From Vicinamibacterales bacterium (GTDB lineage: Bacteria; Acidobacteriota; Vicinamibacteria; Vicinamibacterales; SCN-69-37), in assembly GCA_030827135.1 (NCBI GenBank), contig JAURFE010000004.1:155019-219018 (forward strand): 64,000 nt of DNA, read 5' to 3'. Of the stretch, positions 1 to 19,606 are shown one piece after another (within the stretch, counting starts at the first letter, position 1; every line of letters starts with the position of its first letter). The translations under genes were made by a program, and so were the position numbers. The notes under the pieces were generated by a model. That model ran no database searches, was not told the origin of the DNA, and saw only the letters and a list, made by a program, of their open reading frames with translations.

Positions 1-393
1 TCGCAGCAGGGTGTAGGCCACAAAAATCAGCCACAACACAAGCGACGTCACCAGCCGGACATCACCCCAATCCCACCAGACCCCCCAGGCCTTGCGCGCC
101 CAGAGCGGACCGGTCACCAGCACGATGATGCCGAACACCACGACAAGTTCCGCACCGGCAATCGCGACGCGATCGGAGCCCGGTGTGCGCCGAGCCAGAT
201 AGATGGCGCTGGCAATGCCGCACACAAAGGCGGAGCCGAACATCACCATCGCTGAGGGCACGTGGAAATAGAAGATCTTCTGAATCAACCCCATGGTGGA
301 TTCGTAGGGCGCGGCATCGATGACAAACGGCGCGCCCGCGAACAGCCCCATCGCCACCACGACCAGACCGGCAATCAGTCGATTCTGTCCCAT
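1..393 (-). CDS. ccmC: Heme exporter protein CcmC, 3' end cut by window edge
   Basis: Membrane protein of System I cytochrome c maturation; CcmC presents heme to CcmE on the periplasmic side. The 131 codons visible start at an ATG preceded by AGGAGAAGCG, a good ribosome binding site. The tryptophan-rich heme-handling motif is seen as WGVWWDWGDVRLVTS around residues 97-111, with a FHVP motif (the usual first heme-ligand His) near residue 48. Several hydrophobic segments are present. It lies 8 bases after the ccmB stop in the same direction, so it is the last visible gene of the ccm operon. The C-terminal half is outside the window. Identification is firm. Confidence 0.93.
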   Translation of the reverse strand, partial: MGQNRLIAGLVVVAMGLFAGAPFVIDAAPYESTMGLIQKIFYFHVPSAMVMFGSAFVCGIASAIYLARRTPGSDRVAIAGAELVVVFGIIVLVTGPLWARKAWGVWWDWGDVRLVTSLVLWLIFVAYTLLR

Positions 394-401
394 CGCTTCT
401 C

Positions 402-1091
402 CTACGATTCCGCCATCACGGCGTCGAATACCCACAACGCCAGCGTCAGGAAGACCGCGTCAAAGAATACCAGCATGGAGAGCCAGACCTCCGCGCGGGC
501 CATGTTCGGTTCCGCCGCCAGCAACGCGGCAGTCCCGCTGACTCCGGCAATCATCACCGGCACGGTCAGCGGATACAACACGACCGGCAACAACACATCG
601 CGCGACTGACTCCGGTTGAGCATGGCCCCGAACAGGGTGCCCACCCCGGCAAACCCCAGCCCCCCTGCCACCAGCAACCCCAGCAGGTGCCAGAACACGC
701 CCGACAGGGAGACCCGGAACAGCACCACCACCAACGGGCCGACCACGGCCACCACCAACGACATGATCACCAGCATGCCGATGAGTTTGCCGAGGTACAG
801 CGCCGATCGTTCCACCGGCGCCAGCAGGAGCGCCTTCAACGTCTCCGACTGCCGTTCGCGCTCAAACGTCCGCCCCAACGCGAGCGTGCCCGCAAACGCC
901 AGCGCCACCCAGAGAATGCCCGCAGCGGCGTCGGTCAGCGGCGCCCCATCCACCACAAAGCTGAACGAGAAGATCAGCACCACGGCGACGGCGAAAAACA
1001 CCGTGGTGTACAACAACTCCCGGCTGCGCGCCTCGACCACAAGGTCCTTCCGCGCGATGATGCCGACCGTCTTCCAGAAGCCGGGCGTCAC
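402..1091 (-). CDS. ccmB: Heme exporter subunit CcmB (ABC permease)
   Basis: Integral membrane partner of CcmA; together they release holo-CcmE from CcmC during cytochrome c maturation. The product is 229 residues, normal for CcmB (about 220), mostly hydrophobic with about six membrane segments and the family start pattern (WKTVGIIARKDLVVEARSRE). I placed the start at a GTG whose last bases form the ccmA stop (GTGA overlap); a longer open frame reaches upstream to 1178 but runs inside ccmA and adds a non-homologous leader. ccmC follows after 8 bases. Confidence 0.9.
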   Translation of the reverse strand: MTPGFWKTVGIIARKDLVVEARSRELLYTTVFFAVAVVLIFSFSFVVDGAPLTDAAAGILWVALAFAGTLALGRTFERERQSETLKALLLAPVERSALYLGKLIGMLVIMSLVVAVVGPLVVVLFRVSLSGVFWHLLGLLVAGGLGFAGVGTLFGAMLNRSQSRDVLLPVVLYPLTVPVMIAGVSGTAALLAAEPNMARAEVWLSMLVFFDAVFLTLALWVFDAVMAES

Positions 1092-1801
1092 GCGGTCCCC
1101 TGCAACACGCGACGATACCGATCCCGCAGGGATCCAGCGCCGGCCGGAATCGGAAACGCGCGTCCGCGGTCGATACACACCGCATCATCCACCAGCGTCT
1201 CCGCGGTGTCGAAATCGTGGGTCGCCATGATCACGATCGCCCCCTCCGCCGCCAGCGTGCGCAACCGCGCGATCAAAATGTGGGCCGACGCGTCGTCAAG
1301 GCCCGTGAACGGTTCATCAAGCAGGACCAGGCGCGGCCGGTGGAGCAACGCACGTTCAAGGGCGAGGCGCTGGCGGAGACCGCGGGAGAACCCGCCGGAA
1401 CGGTCGTCGGCGCGATCGGTCAGACGCGCCAGCGCCAGACACTCGGCAACACGCGCGTCCAGATCCGGCACACCATAGAGCCGGCCGAAAAACGCGAGGT
1501 TCTCCGCAGCGGTCAGGTCCGGATACAGATACAGGTCGTGCCCAAGCACCCCGATCGACGCACGCAGGGGATCGCCCGCAGTCTCGGACGCGTGGGTCCC
1601 GTACCGGACCTGGCCTGCTGACGGGCGCAGCAGCGTGGCGAGGATATTCAGGAGCGTCGACTTGCCGGCGCCGTTCGGGCCAAACAGACCAAGGACACGT
1701 CCAGCGTGCGCCTCCAGGGAGACACGCGCCAGCGCCCGTCGGCGGCCGTACGTCCGTGACACGTCAACGACGTGTACGGTGCTGAAATCCAGATCAGGCA
1801 C
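1088..1801 (-). CDS. ccmA: Cytochrome c biogenesis ATP-binding protein CcmA
   Basis: ABC ATPase of the CcmAB complex. Walker A is GPNGAGKST near residue 42 and Walker B with the D-loop is VLLDEPFTGLD. The signature motif is degenerate: GGFSRGLRQR replaces the usual LSGGQ-type string, a form also seen in other CcmA-like ATPases. At 237 residues the size is a little above the usual 200-220. The start is a GTG overlapping the end of the upstream gene by 8 bases; an in-frame ATG at 1957 would add a leader translated from inside the neighbour and is unlikely. Confidence 0.92.
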   Translation of the reverse strand: MPDLDFSTVHVVDVSRTYGRRRALARVSLEAHAGRVLGLFGPNGAGKSTLLNILATLLRPSAGQVRYGTHASETAGDPLRASIGVLGHDLYLYPDLTAAENLAFFGRLYGVPDLDARVAECLALARLTDRADDRSGGFSRGLRQRLALERALLHRPRLVLLDEPFTGLDDASAHILIARLRTLAAEGAIVIMATHDFDTAETLVDDAVCIDRGRAFPIPAGAGSLRDRYRRVLQGTA

Positions 1802-2810
1802 GCACGGCCGGCGCGGTGACCGCGCCCCAGATGCCCCACACCACGAGGGCCAGAGCCAGCAGCAGTGCGGTCCACTGCGGCCAGGTGGGATGGTGCGGCA
1901 ACCCGGAAAAGTCCACCACAAGCGGCTGGCCCGCCTCGATGGCCGGACCGGACGCAAAAATCAGAGGCTGGCCGTTGCTGTCGACCATGTTGCGCGCGGT
2001 GACCTGCGGTGACGCAATTTCCAGTGCTCCCCGTTGCTCGACGAGCAGCGTCAACTGCTGAAGCGTCGCCGGCCAGACCTGTGTCAGTTGTGTCGTGGGG
2101 CCGCGGTAGGGCAACTCAAACGCCGCCTCCACGCGGGTGACCCCGGGCGCAAACGGGCCGGTCACGATCACTCGCGGCCCATTCGCGGTGGCCTGCTTGG
2201 TGGACTCCGGCAGCATCGCCGTGCCGCGCGCCTCACGCGGCAGTTCAAAAATCAGCGGGCCATCGATATCCACTGGCGTGGCGAGTGCGTTGACCACCTC
2301 CATCACGTAGAACACGGTCAATCCGTTTTCGGCGAGTTCAACGATGACCCGTGACTCAGGGCCGAGCACGACCGTCCCCTTGACGGGCGCGGCGCCTGGA
2401 TCCGACGGCGGCGGCGCGACAGCGGCAGGGTCCGCCGGATCGGTCGCCACAAGTGCGACCATCATCCCGGTCGTCCCAATCGGAATCGGCTGCGAATCCA
2501 GACGCACCCCATTGATCATCGTGCTGACGCGCACCGTGTTCCCCACACGCAGCCCCGAGACCAGCGCCCGACCATCGTCACCAGTTGTGACGGTGCGCGA
2601 TTCGCCGTCGACCGACACGTCGACCCTGTGACCCGCAAGCGGATTGCTGAAGTCGGTGATCGCGACACGCACCGACAAGCTGCCCGGCGGCACGTCTGGG
2701 GATGGCAACGGTCGCCCGGACATTTCGCGAAAATTGGGCATCTGCGCTGACGCTGATACCGGGGCGCAGAGGATGGCAGCAAACAGGAACAGGGTTCCAA
2801 AAGATTTCAC
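1794..2810 (-). CDS. Secreted, C-terminally anchored protein with Ig/transthyretin-like region, in ccm operon
   Basis: Unrecognised protein of 338 residues. An N-terminal signal peptide (core LFLFAAILCAPVSASAQ) is followed by a beta-rich region resembling carboxypeptidase-regulatory or Ig-like folds (about residues 45-115, ending in a GTTG stretch), an Ala/Pro/Asp-rich linker near residues 125-145, a second beta-rich domain, and one C-terminal membrane segment (LLLALALVVWGIWGAV) with a short tail. The GTG start overlaps the upstream stop by GTGA, so it is translated with the ccm genes and probably sits on the periplasmic face of the membrane. A role in cytochrome maturation is only suggested by position. 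Confidence 0.7.
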   Translation of the reverse strand: MKSFGTLFLFAAILCAPVSASAQMPNFREMSGRPLPSPDVPPGSLSVRVAITDFSNPLAGHRVDVSVDGESRTVTTGDDGRALVSGLRVGNTVRVSTMINGVRLDSQPIPIGTTGMMVALVATDPADPAAVAPPPSDPGAAPVKGTVVLGPESRVIVELAENGLTVFYVMEVVNALATPVDIDGPLIFELPREARGTAMLPESTKQATANGPRVIVTGPFAPGVTRVEAAFELPYRGPTTQLTQVWPATLQQLTLLVEQRGALEIASPQVTARNMVDSNGQPLIFASGPAIEAGQPLVVDFSGLPHHPTWPQWTALLLALALVVWGIWGAVTAPAVRA

Positions 2811-3340
2811 GCGTGAACACTCCCGAGTCGTTCTCCGCACTGCTTGCAGAACTTCGCATCGCTCTCGTTGGTCGTACGGCAGCGGCTGCACGTCGTCGTT
2901 CCGGCCACAGTAGCGCGGGACGCGTGTGTCCTGGGCGCGTCCGGGGGGATTTGATCGAGCTGCTCCATGATGAGCAGCGCGCGCTGTTTGAGCCGGCCCA
3001 GCATGTCTTCGTAATCGGCGTCGCTGACCTTTTTCATGCCGTAGTCGAACTCGAGGTCCTTGATCGCACGCAGCACGGTGCCCTTGTCCTGCTCGAGCAC
3101 TTCGCGCTGGCGGGCCCCGATGACCGGCGCGCGGTTCTTCGACAGCAACCCCACCAGGGCCTGATGCAGCGCGTACGCCGTGTAACCGGAGGCCAGCGCG
3201 GCGGCGCTCAGCAGCAGCAACGCGGCCGGATGGGTATTCCGAGACATCACCACGGCGGCCGTGGCGGCCACCATGGAGAGCAGGACGTAGAAATGGCCCG
3301 CGGTAAACGGAGCGGGCTCAGTCGAGGTCGCGGAGTTCAT
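2807..3340 (-). CDS. Membrane protein with CcmI-like helix pair and C-terminal zinc ribbon
   Basis: 177 residues. Two membrane segments lie near residues 17-65. A soluble helical region follows with the pattern LEQDKGTVLRAIKDLEFDYG and then KVSDADYEDMLGRLK, which resembles the N-terminal helices of CcmI/CycH-type assembly factors. The C-terminus is a zinc ribbon with two CxxC pairs (CSRC and CKQC). The ATG overlaps the end of the ccmF-ccmH gene by 23 bases. CcmI normally chaperones apocytochromes to CcmF/CcmH, so a truncated CcmI analogue is a reasonable reading, but no TPR repeats are present. The fusion of this helix pair with a zinc ribbon is unusual. Confidence 0.72.
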   Translation of the reverse strand: MNSATSTEPAPFTAGHFYVLLSMVAATAAVVMSRNTHPAALLLLSAAALASGYTAYALHQALVGLLSKNRAPVIGARQREVLEQDKGTVLRAIKDLEFDYGMKKVSDADYEDMLGRLKQRALLIMEQLDQIPPDAPRTHASRATVAGTTTCSRCRTTNESDAKFCKQCGERLGSVHA

Positions 3341-5798
3341 CGTCCAACCTCGCTTCCCGTTCCTGATGCGCCGCCGAGTCCGCGGGCGGCGCCGTCACTG
3401 CGCGATCACCGCCGCGACGGGTCCACCGCACGGCCACGCCCCCGACGAGGAGCACCCCAAGGGCGCCAACCGCGTACGGCAGAAACCACGCCAGGCGATT
3501 AAACCCCTTGTCGATCGGCGCGGCCAGCACTTCCTGGCTGCCGTATTTCTTCACGTAATAATCCACGACTTCGTCGTACGACTTCCCGTCCGCGACGAGC
3601 GCGGAAATTTCCTGCCGCATGGCATCCGCCGTGCCGCAGGTGCATTCGGCCACCCGTTTCCGGCCGCACGTGCCGCACATGCAGACGATTTCGTCGCGGA
3701 GCTTCTTCTCCACCGGTGATCGCGGCACGAGCAGCACGACCTGCGAATTCTCCACATGCTGCGCCTGCGCGTGCGGCGCGAAACCGGCCAGCATGAACAG
3801 CACCAGCAGCGACGTGGTCACCGCGCCCGCCGGTGCCTTCGCTGCGGCGTACGCCATCGCACGTTCCGGCAGCAGCGACAAAATCGTGCCGATCCCCAGA
3901 ACCCCGAAGCCGAACCACACCCAGTTCACCAACGGATTCACCGTCACTTCAAACGTCGCCCGCTGGGTTTCCAGCTCGTAGCCGGCCAGCACGATATAGA
4001 GGTCGTCGGCAAACCCTCGTCGGATCGCGACCTCAGTGGTCGGCTCATCTTCGCGGCCTCGGAAGAACCATCGCGCGGGGTACATCCCCCCGATGGAGGC
4101 TCCCTCCTTGGTCACCGTGGTGTGGCCGGTGATCATCTGCTTCTGGCCGTCGTCGGTGACCTTCAACGCCTCGAACTTCACCAAGTAGTCACCGATCACT
4201 ACCTGCTGGCCGGGCTCGAGATTGATCTGCTCCTCGAGCTTGAACCCGTTGCCCGCAAAGCCGAAGAAGATCAGCACGATGCCCAGATGCACGATGTACC
4301 CGGCGTAGCGGCGACGCGACCGTGCGAAGAGTCCAATCATCGCGGTGAACCGATCCGTGCCGGTGGCCCGCTGCCGGACACCAGACCCGCGCCAGAACTC
4401 CTGCACGATGGTGGTGAGCACCCAGCCACAGAGACCAAAACACAGGCCCGCGGCCCAGAAATTCGCGCCAAGGTACATCACCAGGCCGGTCGTCGCGACG
4501 CCGATGATGATCGGCCACAGAAACTGGTGCAGCATGTTGCCCACGGCGGACTTGCGCCACGCCAGCAGCGGTCCGATCCCCGTCAGCAGGAGGAGCATCA
4601 GCCCGATCGGCAGCATCCACTTGTCAAAAAACGGAGGACCGACCGTCAGGCGCTCCCCGCGCAGCGCCTCGCTGATTGTCGGGAACATCGTCGCAAACAG
4701 GACGAAGAACGCCGAGAACAGCAGAATCCAGTTATTGGCGAGGAACGCCGCCTCGCGCGACGCCCAGGAGTCGAGTTCGTTCCGCGCCCGCAGGAGCGGC
4801 ATCCGCCAAATCACCAGCCCAAAGCTGACCGTCAGAATCACGATCATGAAGATCGTAAACATCCACGCGAGTTCGCGGTCTTCCCCGAAGGCGTGGACGG
4901 ACTGGACAATCCCCGAGCGCGTCATGAACGTCCCGAAGATCGTCAGGAAAAACGTCATGATCACCAGGGAGACGTTCCACACCTTCAGCATGCCGCGCCG
5001 TTCCTGCACCATCACGGAGTGCAGAAATGCAGTCGCGGTGAACCAGGGCAACAGGCCGGCGTTTTCCACCGGGTCCCAGCCCCAGTAGCCGCCCCAGCCG
5101 AGTTCTTCATACGCCCATAGACCACCAAGGGCAAGACCCAGGCTCAGGAACAGCCACGACGTCATCGTCCAGCGCCGCACGGCGCGCAGCCACGAATCAT
5201 CCAACTGCCCGGTGATCAACGCGGCCAGTCCGAAGGCAAACGGAATGGTCATGCCGACAAAACCCAGGTACAGCATCGGCGGGTGGATGACCATGTAGAA
5301 GTTCTGGAGCAACGGATTCAACCCGCGACCATCCGCCGGTGTCGAGAGCAGGTGCGTCTCGAACGGGTTGTTATGGATGACCATGAGGAAGAGGAAGAAC
5401 ATCTGCGTCGCGGCGATGACCGCCACCACCCACGGAATCAGCAGGCGATGCCGTTCGCGGTTGACGTGAATCGCGACGCTGGCAAAGATCGCCAGCAGCG
5501 TCACCCAGAACAGCAGCGAGCCATCGAGGCCACCCCAGTAGGACGTGAGCTTGAAGAACAGCGGCATCGACGAGTCCGAATAGCTGTTCACATACTTGAT
5601 GCTGTAATCGCCCACGACGAACGCGTAGACGATGATCGAGGACAAGACCAGCGTCAGACCGGTCAACACATGTGACAGGCCGACGGCGCCGTCAATCAGG
5701 GCGAGACTGCGGCGGCGGCCGCCTGCAATTCCAGCCGCAAAGGCACCAGCCGCGACGACAAACGCCGCGAGGATCAGAAAGGTTCCGAGGGTGGCCAC
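3318..5798 (-). CDS. ccmF: Cytochrome c heme lyase CcmF fused to CcmH
   Basis: An 826-residue fusion. Residues 1-655 are CcmF: many membrane helices, the tryptophan-rich heme motif ending in GYWGWDPVENAGLLPW (residues 237-252), and conserved histidines in the surrounding helices. A hydrophobic segment at 661-680 ends in AHAQAQ-like residues and looks like a former signal peptide. Residues 690-800 are CcmH, the apocytochrome thioredox partner, with cysteines at 706, 708, 711, 719 and 721 instead of the usual single CxxC pair, then the conserved AMRQEI and KKYGSQEVL stretches, a membrane helix and a charged tail. ccmE ends only three bases before the start. Separate CcmG and CcmD are not seen here. 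Confidence 0.9.
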   Translation of the reverse strand: MATLGTFLILAAFVVAAGAFAAGIAGGRRRSLALIDGAVGLSHVLTGLTLVLSSIIVYAFVVGDYSIKYVNSYSDSSMPLFFKLTSYWGGLDGSLLFWVTLLAIFASVAIHVNRERHRLLIPWVVAVIAATQMFFLFLMVIHNNPFETHLLSTPADGRGLNPLLQNFYMVIHPPMLYLGFVGMTIPFAFGLAALITGQLDDSWLRAVRRWTMTSWLFLSLGLALGGLWAYEELGWGGYWGWDPVENAGLLPWFTATAFLHSVMVQERRGMLKVWNVSLVIMTFFLTIFGTFMTRSGIVQSVHAFGEDRELAWMFTIFMIVILTVSFGLVIWRMPLLRARNELDSWASREAAFLANNWILLFSAFFVLFATMFPTISEALRGERLTVGPPFFDKWMLPIGLMLLLLTGIGPLLAWRKSAVGNMLHQFLWPIIIGVATTGLVMYLGANFWAAGLCFGLCGWVLTTIVQEFWRGSGVRQRATGTDRFTAMIGLFARSRRRYAGYIVHLGIVLIFFGFAGNGFKLEEQINLEPGQQVVIGDYLVKFEALKVTDDGQKQMITGHTTVTKEGASIGGMYPARWFFRGREDEPTTEVAIRRGFADDLYIVLAGYELETQRATFEVTVNPLVNWVWFGFGVLGIGTILSLLPERAMAYAAAKAPAGAVTTSLLVLFMLAGFAPHAQAQHVENSQVVLLVPRSPVEKKLRDEIVCMCGTCGRKRVAECTCGTADAMRQEISALVADGKSYDEVVDYYVKKYGSQEVLAAPIDKGFNRLAWFLPYAVGALGVLLVGGVAVRWTRRGGDRAVTAPPADSAAHQEREARLDDELRDLD

Positions 5799-5801
5799 GG
5801 A

Positions 5802-6212
5802 CTAACGTACCGCGGCCGGCAGCGCGTCGGCCTCATACCGGGACGGGCACTTGGCCATGATCCCGTCCTTCTCCACCACGATCGTGTCGCCCGTCAGCTT
5901 GCCTTTCACGACCACCTCAGCGTCCTTTTTGAACGTATCCGGCACCACGCCCTGATACTGCGCGTTGACCGTCTTGCCGTTCGCCTGGATCGTGAAGCGA
6001 TACTCAAGCGTGGACGGATTGAACAGCGGGTCACCGAGCACATATCCGTGCACGCGCAACCGCTTGCCTTCCCACTGGTCCGGCTCGGCCATGACTTCAT
6101 CAACGTACTTGTAGTATTCGGCGCCTTCCGAAATTGAGGAGTACATCAGGAACGAAAGCGCGCCAACAATCACCAGAGCGGAGAGACTGACTCGGACCGT
6201 TTTCTTGGACAT
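5802..6212 (-). CDS. ccmE: Heme chaperone CcmE, CxxxY variant
   Basis: Periplasmic heme chaperone anchored by one N-terminal helix (VSLSALVIVGALSFLMY). The 136-residue length is normal. The OB-fold body includes the typical VHGYVLGD and VVVKGKL strands. At the place of the usual heme-attaching His (HxxxY), the sequence reads IMAKCPSRYEAD, so Cys replaces His and the conserved Tyr four residues later is kept. CxxxY CcmE proteins are known from archaea and Desulfovibrio-like bacteria. The gene begins the ccm operon; a perfect 12-base palindrome (6214-6225) covers its GAGG ribosome binding site. Confidence 0.93.
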   Translation of the reverse strand: MSKKTVRVSLSALVIVGALSFLMYSSISEGAEYYKYVDEVMAEPDQWEGKRLRVHGYVLGDPLFNPSTLEYRFTIQANGKTVNAQYQGVVPDTFKKDAEVVVKGKLTGDTIVVEKDGIMAKCPSRYEADALPAAVR

Positions 6213-18250: not shown

Positions 18251-18546
18251 CCCTTCAACCAATCCACCTGGTCGGCCATCGCGGTACGCCGCGTGCGGAA
18301 CAACAGGATGACAATCGCGAGACCCAGGGCGACTTCGGCGACCGTGATGCAGATCGCCAGAATCGTCAACACCATGCCGGTCACTTCACCGTGAAACCGG
18401 CTGAACGCCACCAGATTGATGTTGACGGCGTTCAGCATCAGCTCAATGCCCAGCAGGATACCGACCGTGTTCCGGCGGGTCATCACGCCAAACAGGCCGA
18501 TGCAGAACACCACCGCCGCGAGGATGAGATAGGCAGAGAGTCCCAT
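18247..18546 (-). CDS. nuoK: NADH-quinone oxidoreductase subunit K
   Basis: Small membrane subunit of 99 residues with three helices, the usual size. The conserved glutamates of the E-channel appear in ILLGIELMLNAVNINLVAF and TVAEVALGLAIVILL. It lies two bases after nuoJ and overlaps nuoL by four bases. NuoK and NuoJ connect the quinone site to the pumping modules. Confidence 0.95.
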   Translation of the reverse strand: MGLSAYLILAAVVFCIGLFGVMTRRNTVGILLGIELMLNAVNINLVAFSRFHGEVTGMVLTILAICITVAEVALGLAIVILLFRTRRTAMADQVDWLKG

Positions 18547-18548
18547 GG

Positions 18549-19043
18549 TCAGTCCTCCGGTCTCGCGAAGTAGCTAGCCGACAGCAGAGACACCAGCAGA
18601 ATGACCGCGAGCAGTTCAAACGGCAGCACGTACCGCGTCATCAGTTCGCGCCCAATCAGATGTGTCGGGTCCCCTTCGAACGGTATCCGCACGGCCGCCA
18701 CCGGGGCGCGCATCAGGGTATTCACCAGCAACAGCAGCAACACCCCGGCGACAGCGGCTCCCCCGACCAGGCCGCGACTCGTATGGGACAACCGCTCCCC
18801 CACCAGGCGTTCCGTGACCACGATGGCGAAGACGACGACCGTGACGACACCGCCGGCGTAGAGCAGAATCTGGACGCCGGCGAGAAACTCCGCCTGCAGC
18901 ATCAGAAAAACGCCCGCGGTGCCGGTCAACGCCAACGCCAGCCACAACACCGAGTGGAACAGGTTCTTGGTGAGCACCACGGCGAGCGCTGATCCCACCA
19001 GCAACACAGCGAGGATCCAGAAGCCGATGACGTCGAGGGTCAT
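18549..19043 (-). CDS. nuoJ: NADH-quinone oxidoreductase subunit J
   Basis: 164 residues, five membrane helices, standard for NuoJ. The family region LAGVQILLYAGGVVTVVVFAIVV is seen near residues 52-74, containing the pi-bulge helix that takes part in coupling. The ATG overlaps the nuoI stop (ATGA). Together with NuoK it sits between NuoH and the antiporter subunits. Confidence 0.94.
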   Translation of the reverse strand: MTLDVIGFWILAVLLVGSALAVVLTKNLFHSVLWLALALTGTAGVFLMLQAEFLAGVQILLYAGGVVTVVVFAIVVTERLVGERLSHTSRGLVGGAAVAGVLLLLLVNTLMRAPVAAVRIPFEGDPTHLIGRELMTRYVLPFELLAVILLVSLLSASYFARPED

Positions 19044-19606
19044 ACGTCGCCTCCAGCGGCGTCGGCCGCCGGCTTTTCCGCCGCGGGTTTCTCAGCCGCC
19101 ACCTTCTTCGGCGGCGCCTGCATGTCGCGCAGCCGGTTGCCGGTCGCCCACGACGCGTCGAACTTCTCGCCTATGGCGTGCAGCCGGTCCTTGTCGAGGA
19201 GGAGTTCGCGGCGATCGGTGGTCGCCATGTCAAACGACTTCATCATGATGATGGCGTCTGTCGGGCAGACCTGCACGCACAGCTCGCAGAACTCGCACGC
19301 ATACAGTTCAAGGGAGAACGTCTTGGCGTAGTTCCGCTTCTCGCTCTTGAGCATCTCGACCTTGATGACGGCCGGCGGGCAGACGAACTCGCACAGGCGG
19401 CAGCCGATGCAGTTCTCCTCGCCGGTGTCCTTGTCATAGGTGAGCGCCAGCAATCCCCGATACCGATCCGGATACGTCCGGGGTTTGTCCGGGTAATGCA
19501 CGGTAACGGGCTTACGCAGGAAGTTGCGGCCCGAAATCCGCATGGCGCGAAAGACGGACGTGGCGACGGCCCACGTCTCTTGCAGAATCCCGCGCGGCTC
19601 AGCCAC
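19040..19606 (-). CDS. nuoI: NADH-quinone oxidoreductase subunit I (two 4Fe-4S clusters)
   Basis: Peripheral iron-sulfur subunit that passes electrons towards NuoB. The eight cluster ligands are complete: CIGCRLCEFVCP (Cys66, 69, 72, 76) and CEFCELCVQVCP (Cys104, 107, 110, 114). An Ala/Lys/Pro/Glu-rich tail (residues about 160-188) with two copies of AAEKPA extends beyond the core. I took the GTG at 19606 because AGGAG lies eight bases upstream; a GTG at 19615 is the alternative and makes the overlap with nuoH longer. With no NuoEFG nearby, NuoI would be the outermost electron entry subunit. Confidence 0.94.
   Translation of the reverse strand: MAEPRGILQETWAVATSVFRAMRISGRNFLRKPVTVHYPDKPRTYPDRYRGLLALTYDKDTGEENCIGCRLCEFVCPPAVIKVEMLKSEKRNYAKTFSLELYACEFCELCVQVCPTDAIIMMKSFDMATTDRRELLLDKDRLHAIGEKFDASWATGNRLRDMQAPPKKVAAEKPAAEKPAADAAGGDV

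Follow-up and report, generated by a model that had tools for sequence, protein, structure and literature searches.

A form of cytochrome c maturation in which the heme chaperone CcmE carries cysteine in place of the heme-binding histidine has been published as System I*, with CPSKY as the commonest CcmE motif (PMC3601427). The carriers listed in 2011 were delta-proteobacteria, Chloroflexi and Firmicutes (PMC3601427). The definition given in 2006 included absence of CcmH, a point dropped in 2011 (PMC3601427); since roughly one in three System I* bacteria retains CcmH (PMC3601427), the combination of a CxxxY CcmE with CcmH is not new. Cys-type CcmE is experimentally active in Desulfovibrio desulfuricans and Methanosarcina acetivorans (PMC3601427, PMC9084895); in M. 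acetivorans the Cys is required for heme attachment (PMC9084895). Heme binding by the Desulfovibrio proteins is disputed: covalent in D. desulfuricans, it was reported as non-covalent for D. vulgaris (PMC3884852).

We analysed a stretch of 64 000 nt (the window) from the genome of a Vicinamibacterales bacterium, phylum Acidobacteriota. The gene order on the minus strand, to which all window coordinates below refer, is ccmE, ccmF-ccmH, a gene of a CcmI-like protein, a gene of a 365-aa protein, ccmA, ccmB, ccmC and a CcmD-like gene. As in System I* (Allen 2006; Goddard 2010; review PMC3601427), CcmE has Cys for His within a CPSKY-like motif, CcmABCDEF are present and ccmG is not present in the operon. 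Unlike in the described System I*, CcmH is in frame with CcmF and has five cysteines (CxCGxC...CxC); also, the CcmI-like zinc-ribbon gene and the gene of the 365-aa protein lie between ccmFH and ccmA. The absence of CcmH specified in 2006 does not hold here, as a CcmH domain is fused to CcmF. With E. coli System I the locus shares an OB-fold CcmE, a WWD CcmF with four histidines, CcmA-D and the three-helix fold of CcmH; it differs in having Cys, not His, in the order E-F-H, not E-F-G-H, and in a CcmH that is not of the RCxxCQ type.

Outside the phylum the comparison covered Bacillaceae, Deinococcus and E. coli. CcmE of E. coli and Deinococcus is HxxxY; CcmE of two plasmid operons, those of Metabacillus pB218 and Cytobacillus firmus p1, has the motif CPSKY, and these operons have the order E-F-H-(CcmI-like)-(unknown)-A-B-C, like the window. 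They differ from it in that ccmF and ccmH are separate genes with an 8-base overlap instead of one frame, CcmH has two cysteines far apart (PGC...YC) and no CxxC, and ccmG is found at the operon end.

The CcmI-like small membrane protein (177 aa, 2807..3340) was recognized by BLASTP and by weak zinc-ribbon matches; its BLASTP hit (3e-5) is the gene product that follows CcmH in the operon of Metabacillus. Its C-terminus is a zinc ribbon, not a TPR domain, and the Bacillaceae counterpart has no ribbon. The 365-aa exported or membrane protein (1794..2891), uncharacterised, had no Pfam or NCBIfam match; a 310-aa hypothetical protein occupies this position in the Metabacillus operon, with no detectable similarity between the two, and the Cytobacillus operon likewise has a hypothetical of similar size there. 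The CcmA ATPase (1088..1957) matched ABC_tran (7.5e-29) and, below cut-off, the ccmA model TIGR01189 (7.7e-37); the true start of ccmA is probably later than the listed TTG. CcmB (402..1178) matched Pfam CcmB at 1.5e-30. The 5' part of ccmC is at 1..435 (PF01578 match G000:C42:154911-155393) and the gene runs past the window edge; beyond it a CcmD-like gene follows ccmC (ORFs of the two genes in the locus piece, 18747-19454 and 18436-18741; TIGR01191, TIGR04391).

It is very likely that the operon in the window is the only one for cytochrome c maturation in this genome and represents a System I* variant. No separate System II ResB was found in the genome; the single ResB match lies inside CcmF itself, at its C-terminus, and System II was rejected as the real pathway. 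Cytochromes c to be matured do exist in the genome: the monoheme cytochrome c domain PF13442 is matched 17 times, in 13 cases above the cut-off. DsbD-type transmembrane proteins and redoxins are encoded elsewhere in the genome; one redoxin-family match (G000:C11:1060164-1060553) has an internal TGA stop.

A fusion of CcmF with CcmH next to ccmE had been proposed in the original prediction, and we saw it confirmed: the Pfam domains CcmF_C, Cytochrom_C_asm and CcmH are in one protein of 826 aa read in a single frame (3318..5798), and 80 ORFs of the order are built alike. As these ORFs come from many separate assemblies, an assembly error was rejected as the origin of the fusion. The CcmF part (residues 1-645, 3864..5798) aligns with Thermus CcmF 6zmq at E 9e-89; its WWD loop WGGYWGWDPVENA (WGGYWGWDP) and H172, H260, H302 and H504 are invariant or nearly so in the alignment, so that both the WWD domain and the periplasmic and transmembrane histidines of a CcmF are in place (residue roles taken from the literature). 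The CcmH part begins at Q680 (3321..3761; Pfam CcmH, PF03918, 57.8 bits, 9.5e-16). Its AlphaFold model (pLDDT 86) shows a three-helix domain, a C-terminal transmembrane helix and a cytoplasmic helix, and in a Foldseek search it matched Pseudomonas aeruginosa CcmH 2hl7 (probability 1.00, E 0.028); family match and three-helix fold both identify it as CcmH.

The frame is fused at the ccmE locus in 11 of the 14 surveyed genomes of Vicinamibacterales. As for the other three, G078 has on another contig a frame of 770 aa with a CcmH domain at its end, and G049 and G127 have an unfused CcmF, with a CcmH of another type (APCC) elsewhere; since these two genomes do with an unfused CcmF and a different CcmH, the arrangement is dispensable. 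The fused frame was read in 69 of 80 named relatives; of the others, 8 showed CcmF with no detected CcmH (some of these being cut by a contig end), and in 3 the available sequence did not include CcmF. Some close relatives carry incorrect database names (Acidimicrobiia, Cyanobacteria, Bifidobacterium breve), although the ccm operons they contain belong to this Acidobacteriota type. The fusion was not seen at the ccmE loci examined elsewhere in the phylum sample. In the CcmF tree the order forms one clade (support 100) with the unfused G049 and G127 inside; the two changes that the fusion requires on it are best interpreted as a single gain and a single loss. In several operons with CxxxY and a separate ccmH, the latter starts about -14 to +23 bases from the ccmF stop, so that the fusion could arise by a minor change.

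The linker between the two parts (residues 646-679, 3762..3863) resembles an internal signal peptide, judging by its conservation and by a helix in the model. It consists of a loop bearing K/R, a short hydrophobic stretch at about 659-672 and the tripeptide A677-Q-A679, after which CcmH begins with Q680. Across 73 distinct linkers the small-x-Ala|Gln site has Ala at -1 in 100% and Gln at +1 in 93%; these two residues are as conserved as the CcmH cysteines, compared with <60% for most neighbouring columns of the linker. The pattern [AVSTGLI]xA[QHE] followed 72 of the 73 linker hydrophobic segments; of 914 control segments, hydrophobic stretches elsewhere in these proteins, 17 were followed by it. 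Hence a hydrophobic stretch and then a conserved small-x-Ala site, the arrangement sought in a polyprotein, are both found in the linker; to assess the cleavage site we relied on pattern and conservation rather than on a trained predictor. Separate CcmH relatives have ordinary N-terminal signal peptides, several of them ending in AQ.

Because of this conserved internal signal-peptide-like site, we consider CcmF and CcmH to be probably made as one chain and then cut apart; to the reading that the fusion is a polyprotein rather than a permanent two-domain protein we assign, from sequence, a probability of roughly 75%. The cut would most likely be made by signal peptidase I after Ala679, as conservation suggests, releasing CcmH from Gln680. 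The cytochrome b/c1 of Bradyrhizobium (fbcH) is reportedly also made as one chain, with internal signal-peptide cleavage shown by experiment; there, likewise, two neighbouring respiratory proteins share a chain, though the proteins differ from CcmF and CcmH.

One could argue instead that CcmF and CcmH stay permanently fused, the linker segment being an extra transmembrane helix that keeps CcmH beside the CcmF heme site in a 1:1 ratio. The uninterrupted single frame in 80 ORFs agrees with it, and such tethering would be sensible, as in a computed CcmF/H complex the CxxC of CcmH lies close to the WWD site (PMC10663686). However, a permanent fusion leaves the invariant Ala and the 93% Gln after a short helix with no reason to be there; moreover, the AlphaFold helix (659-672) is 14 residues long and has no confident packing, and confidence is low over 658-690. 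We regard permanent fusion as unlikely.

Still less probable is separate translation of CcmH, as an additional or the sole source of the protein, from a start codon within the 3' end of ccmF; CcmH would then have a signal peptide of its own, and the frame would be open across the junction by accident. An in-frame ATG in the window does open a good signal peptide, and ATG occurs in the linker region of 51 of the 80 fused ORFs; yet methionine is not conserved in its column, where Phe is most frequent (50%), a near-consensus Shine-Dalgarno sequence precedes any start codon of the region in only 3 of the 80, and a frame kept open with ccmF through 80 diverged ORFs suggests selection for the fusion.

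The gene next to the polyprotein frame, an ORF of 136 aa with ATG start (5802..6212), is a CcmE that very probably works as a System I* heme chaperone, judging from its sequence and genomic setting. The match to Pfam CcmE (PF03100) has 75.4 bits (cut-off 24.6; E 4.8e-21) and covers profile positions 2-98 of 99; the protein combines a membrane anchor with a periplasmic OB-fold heme chaperone domain. Through the motif, the ORF can be aligned with three CcmE proteins of known structure, 8ce8, 1sr3 (E. coli) and 2kct, the last being the Cys-type CcmE of D. vulgaris (PMC3884852). The original prediction had set IMAKCPSRYE against the classical heme-attaching AKHDENY, with Cys for His, and the column alignment bears it out: AKCPSRY falls in the same columns as the E. 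coli AKHDENY, and Cys122 and Tyr126 are opposite His130 and Tyr134. The motif Cys122-Pro-Ser-Arg-Tyr126, placed by the column alignment, is encoded at 5835..5849 (codons read from the sequence: Cys122 at 5847-5849, Tyr126 at 5835-5837). Thus Cys122 stands in the column of the heme-binding His of classical HxxxY, and CPSRY conforms to the System I* type CxxxY, usually CPSKY, which is also what most relatives have.

A second CcmE of HxxxY type, which would have spoken against the prediction by serving as the real chaperone, is absent: the PF03100 search gave this single match in the whole 3.24-Mb genome (80 contigs; completeness 100). A chance occurrence of CxxxY was rejected, since a motif KC-x-x-x-Y of the same make recurs in each of the 87 genomes typed as CxxxY in the phylum sample described below; also, 447 of 455 matches to AKCPS[KR]YE in the GTDB genome collection, scanned with a Cys-only CcmE alignment as the query, encode CcmE relatives. 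That this CcmE has decayed or been repurposed, the Cys marking a lost heme chaperone function, is very improbable: the tail after the motif is indeed shorter than in E. coli and the best NCBIfam CcmE match (61 bits) is below the model cut-offs, but dozens of Acidobacteriota families keep the motif, the operon is complete, the genome has neither another CcmE nor System II, and the Cys type is active in the two organisms cited at the outset. By analogy with its homologues, heme would be bound covalently at Cys122. This CcmE is a member of an already described kind and ordinary for its phylum.

How ordinary it is can be seen from a sample of 149 Acidobacteriota genomes, in which CcmE was found in 99 and the motif was read at each locus. 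The type was CxxxY in 87 genomes (mostly CPSKY or CASKY within KC-x-x-x-Y) and HxxxY in 12. The prediction had placed CxxxY in archaea and Desulfovibrio-like bacteria; the type itself is confirmed, but its range was understated, as it is the rule in Acidobacteriota (87/99). CcmH (PF03918) occurs in 76 of the 149: in all 12 with HxxxY, in 63 of the 87 with CxxxY and in one with no CcmE. Thus the CxxxY type occurs across the phylum with fused CcmH, with separate CcmH or with no CcmH, and the notion that CxxxY means absence of CcmH was rejected for this phylum. The prediction had also called for a survey of Acidobacteriota that would correlate CcmE type with ccmF/ccmH architecture. The link it implied between CxxxY and the fusion turned out to be weak, the fusion being limited in the sample to the order of the window and CxxxY being phylum-wide, and we rejected the rule that one goes with the other; a correlation did appear between CcmE type and CcmH type.

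A CcmH with RCxxCQ is present in 12 of 12 HxxxY genomes versus none of the 63 CxxxY genomes that have CcmH. The latter have a multi-cysteine CcmH, CxC(G)..C (51 genomes), one with APCC (12) or one with CPVCP (1), some genomes having two; in 2 of the CxxxY genomes an additional odd CcmH accompanies the multi-cysteine one. The CcmH with APCC motif is a second kind, whose gene lies apart from ccmE in the CxxxY genomes. For the split of 12/0 versus 0/63 the Fisher test gave p = 4e-14, a value that overstates the evidence because the sampled genomes are related. On the CcmF tree two changes between C and H suffice; therefore, few independent events are behind the pairing of types, and an exchange of entire operons may have occurred. 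In HxxxY operons ccmH starts 517-694 bases past ccmF, and all four of those read have a CcmG-like thioredoxin gene in between.

In the window, CcmH has CMCGTC...CTC instead of the classical redox motif LRCxxC. Its five cysteines (706, 708, 711, 719 and 721; CxCGxC...CxC) are invariant in 50 aligned relatives; the extra ones may serve in a disulfide relay or bind a metal. The CcmF-CcmH frame, the conserved internal site and the multi-cysteine CcmH make up a new variant. A search of mostly open-access literature returned no description of the Acidobacteriota case, of a CcmF-CcmH frame or of the internal site, which is weak evidence of novelty.

The following sequence of events could be proposed, its heme-handling steps modelled on homologues. 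CcmC and CcmD, with CcmA and CcmB, would load heme onto Cys122 of CcmE, with Tyr126 as a likely axial ligand of the heme; CcmE would pass the heme to CcmF, which would attach it to apocytochromes presented or reduced by CcmH. CcmF and CcmH would be translated as one chain with the old CcmH signal peptide retained inside, and the predicted signal peptidase cut would leave CcmF and a separate, membrane-anchored CcmH. More tentatively, and at odds that fall short of even, the polyprotein might be cut order-wide and the CcmE chemistry of Acidobacteriota might be matched to CcmH chemistry, with CcmH having a different redox job in System I*. As part of this joint reading, CcmH of System I* would perhaps help to release heme from the stable Cys-heme bond.

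How the thioether-like bond between heme and the Cys of CcmE is broken is named as a question in the System I* literature (PMC3601427). Acidobacteriota offer natural comparisons: the Cys-type CcmE is the norm, CcmH is present or absent, and the CcmH active site differs with the Cys type. The fused operon provides a single gene for the CcmF-CcmH synthase, which could ease its purification, as the natural CcsBA fusions did for System II; and its internal signal-peptide site allows the idea of a bacterial polyprotein to be put to the test.
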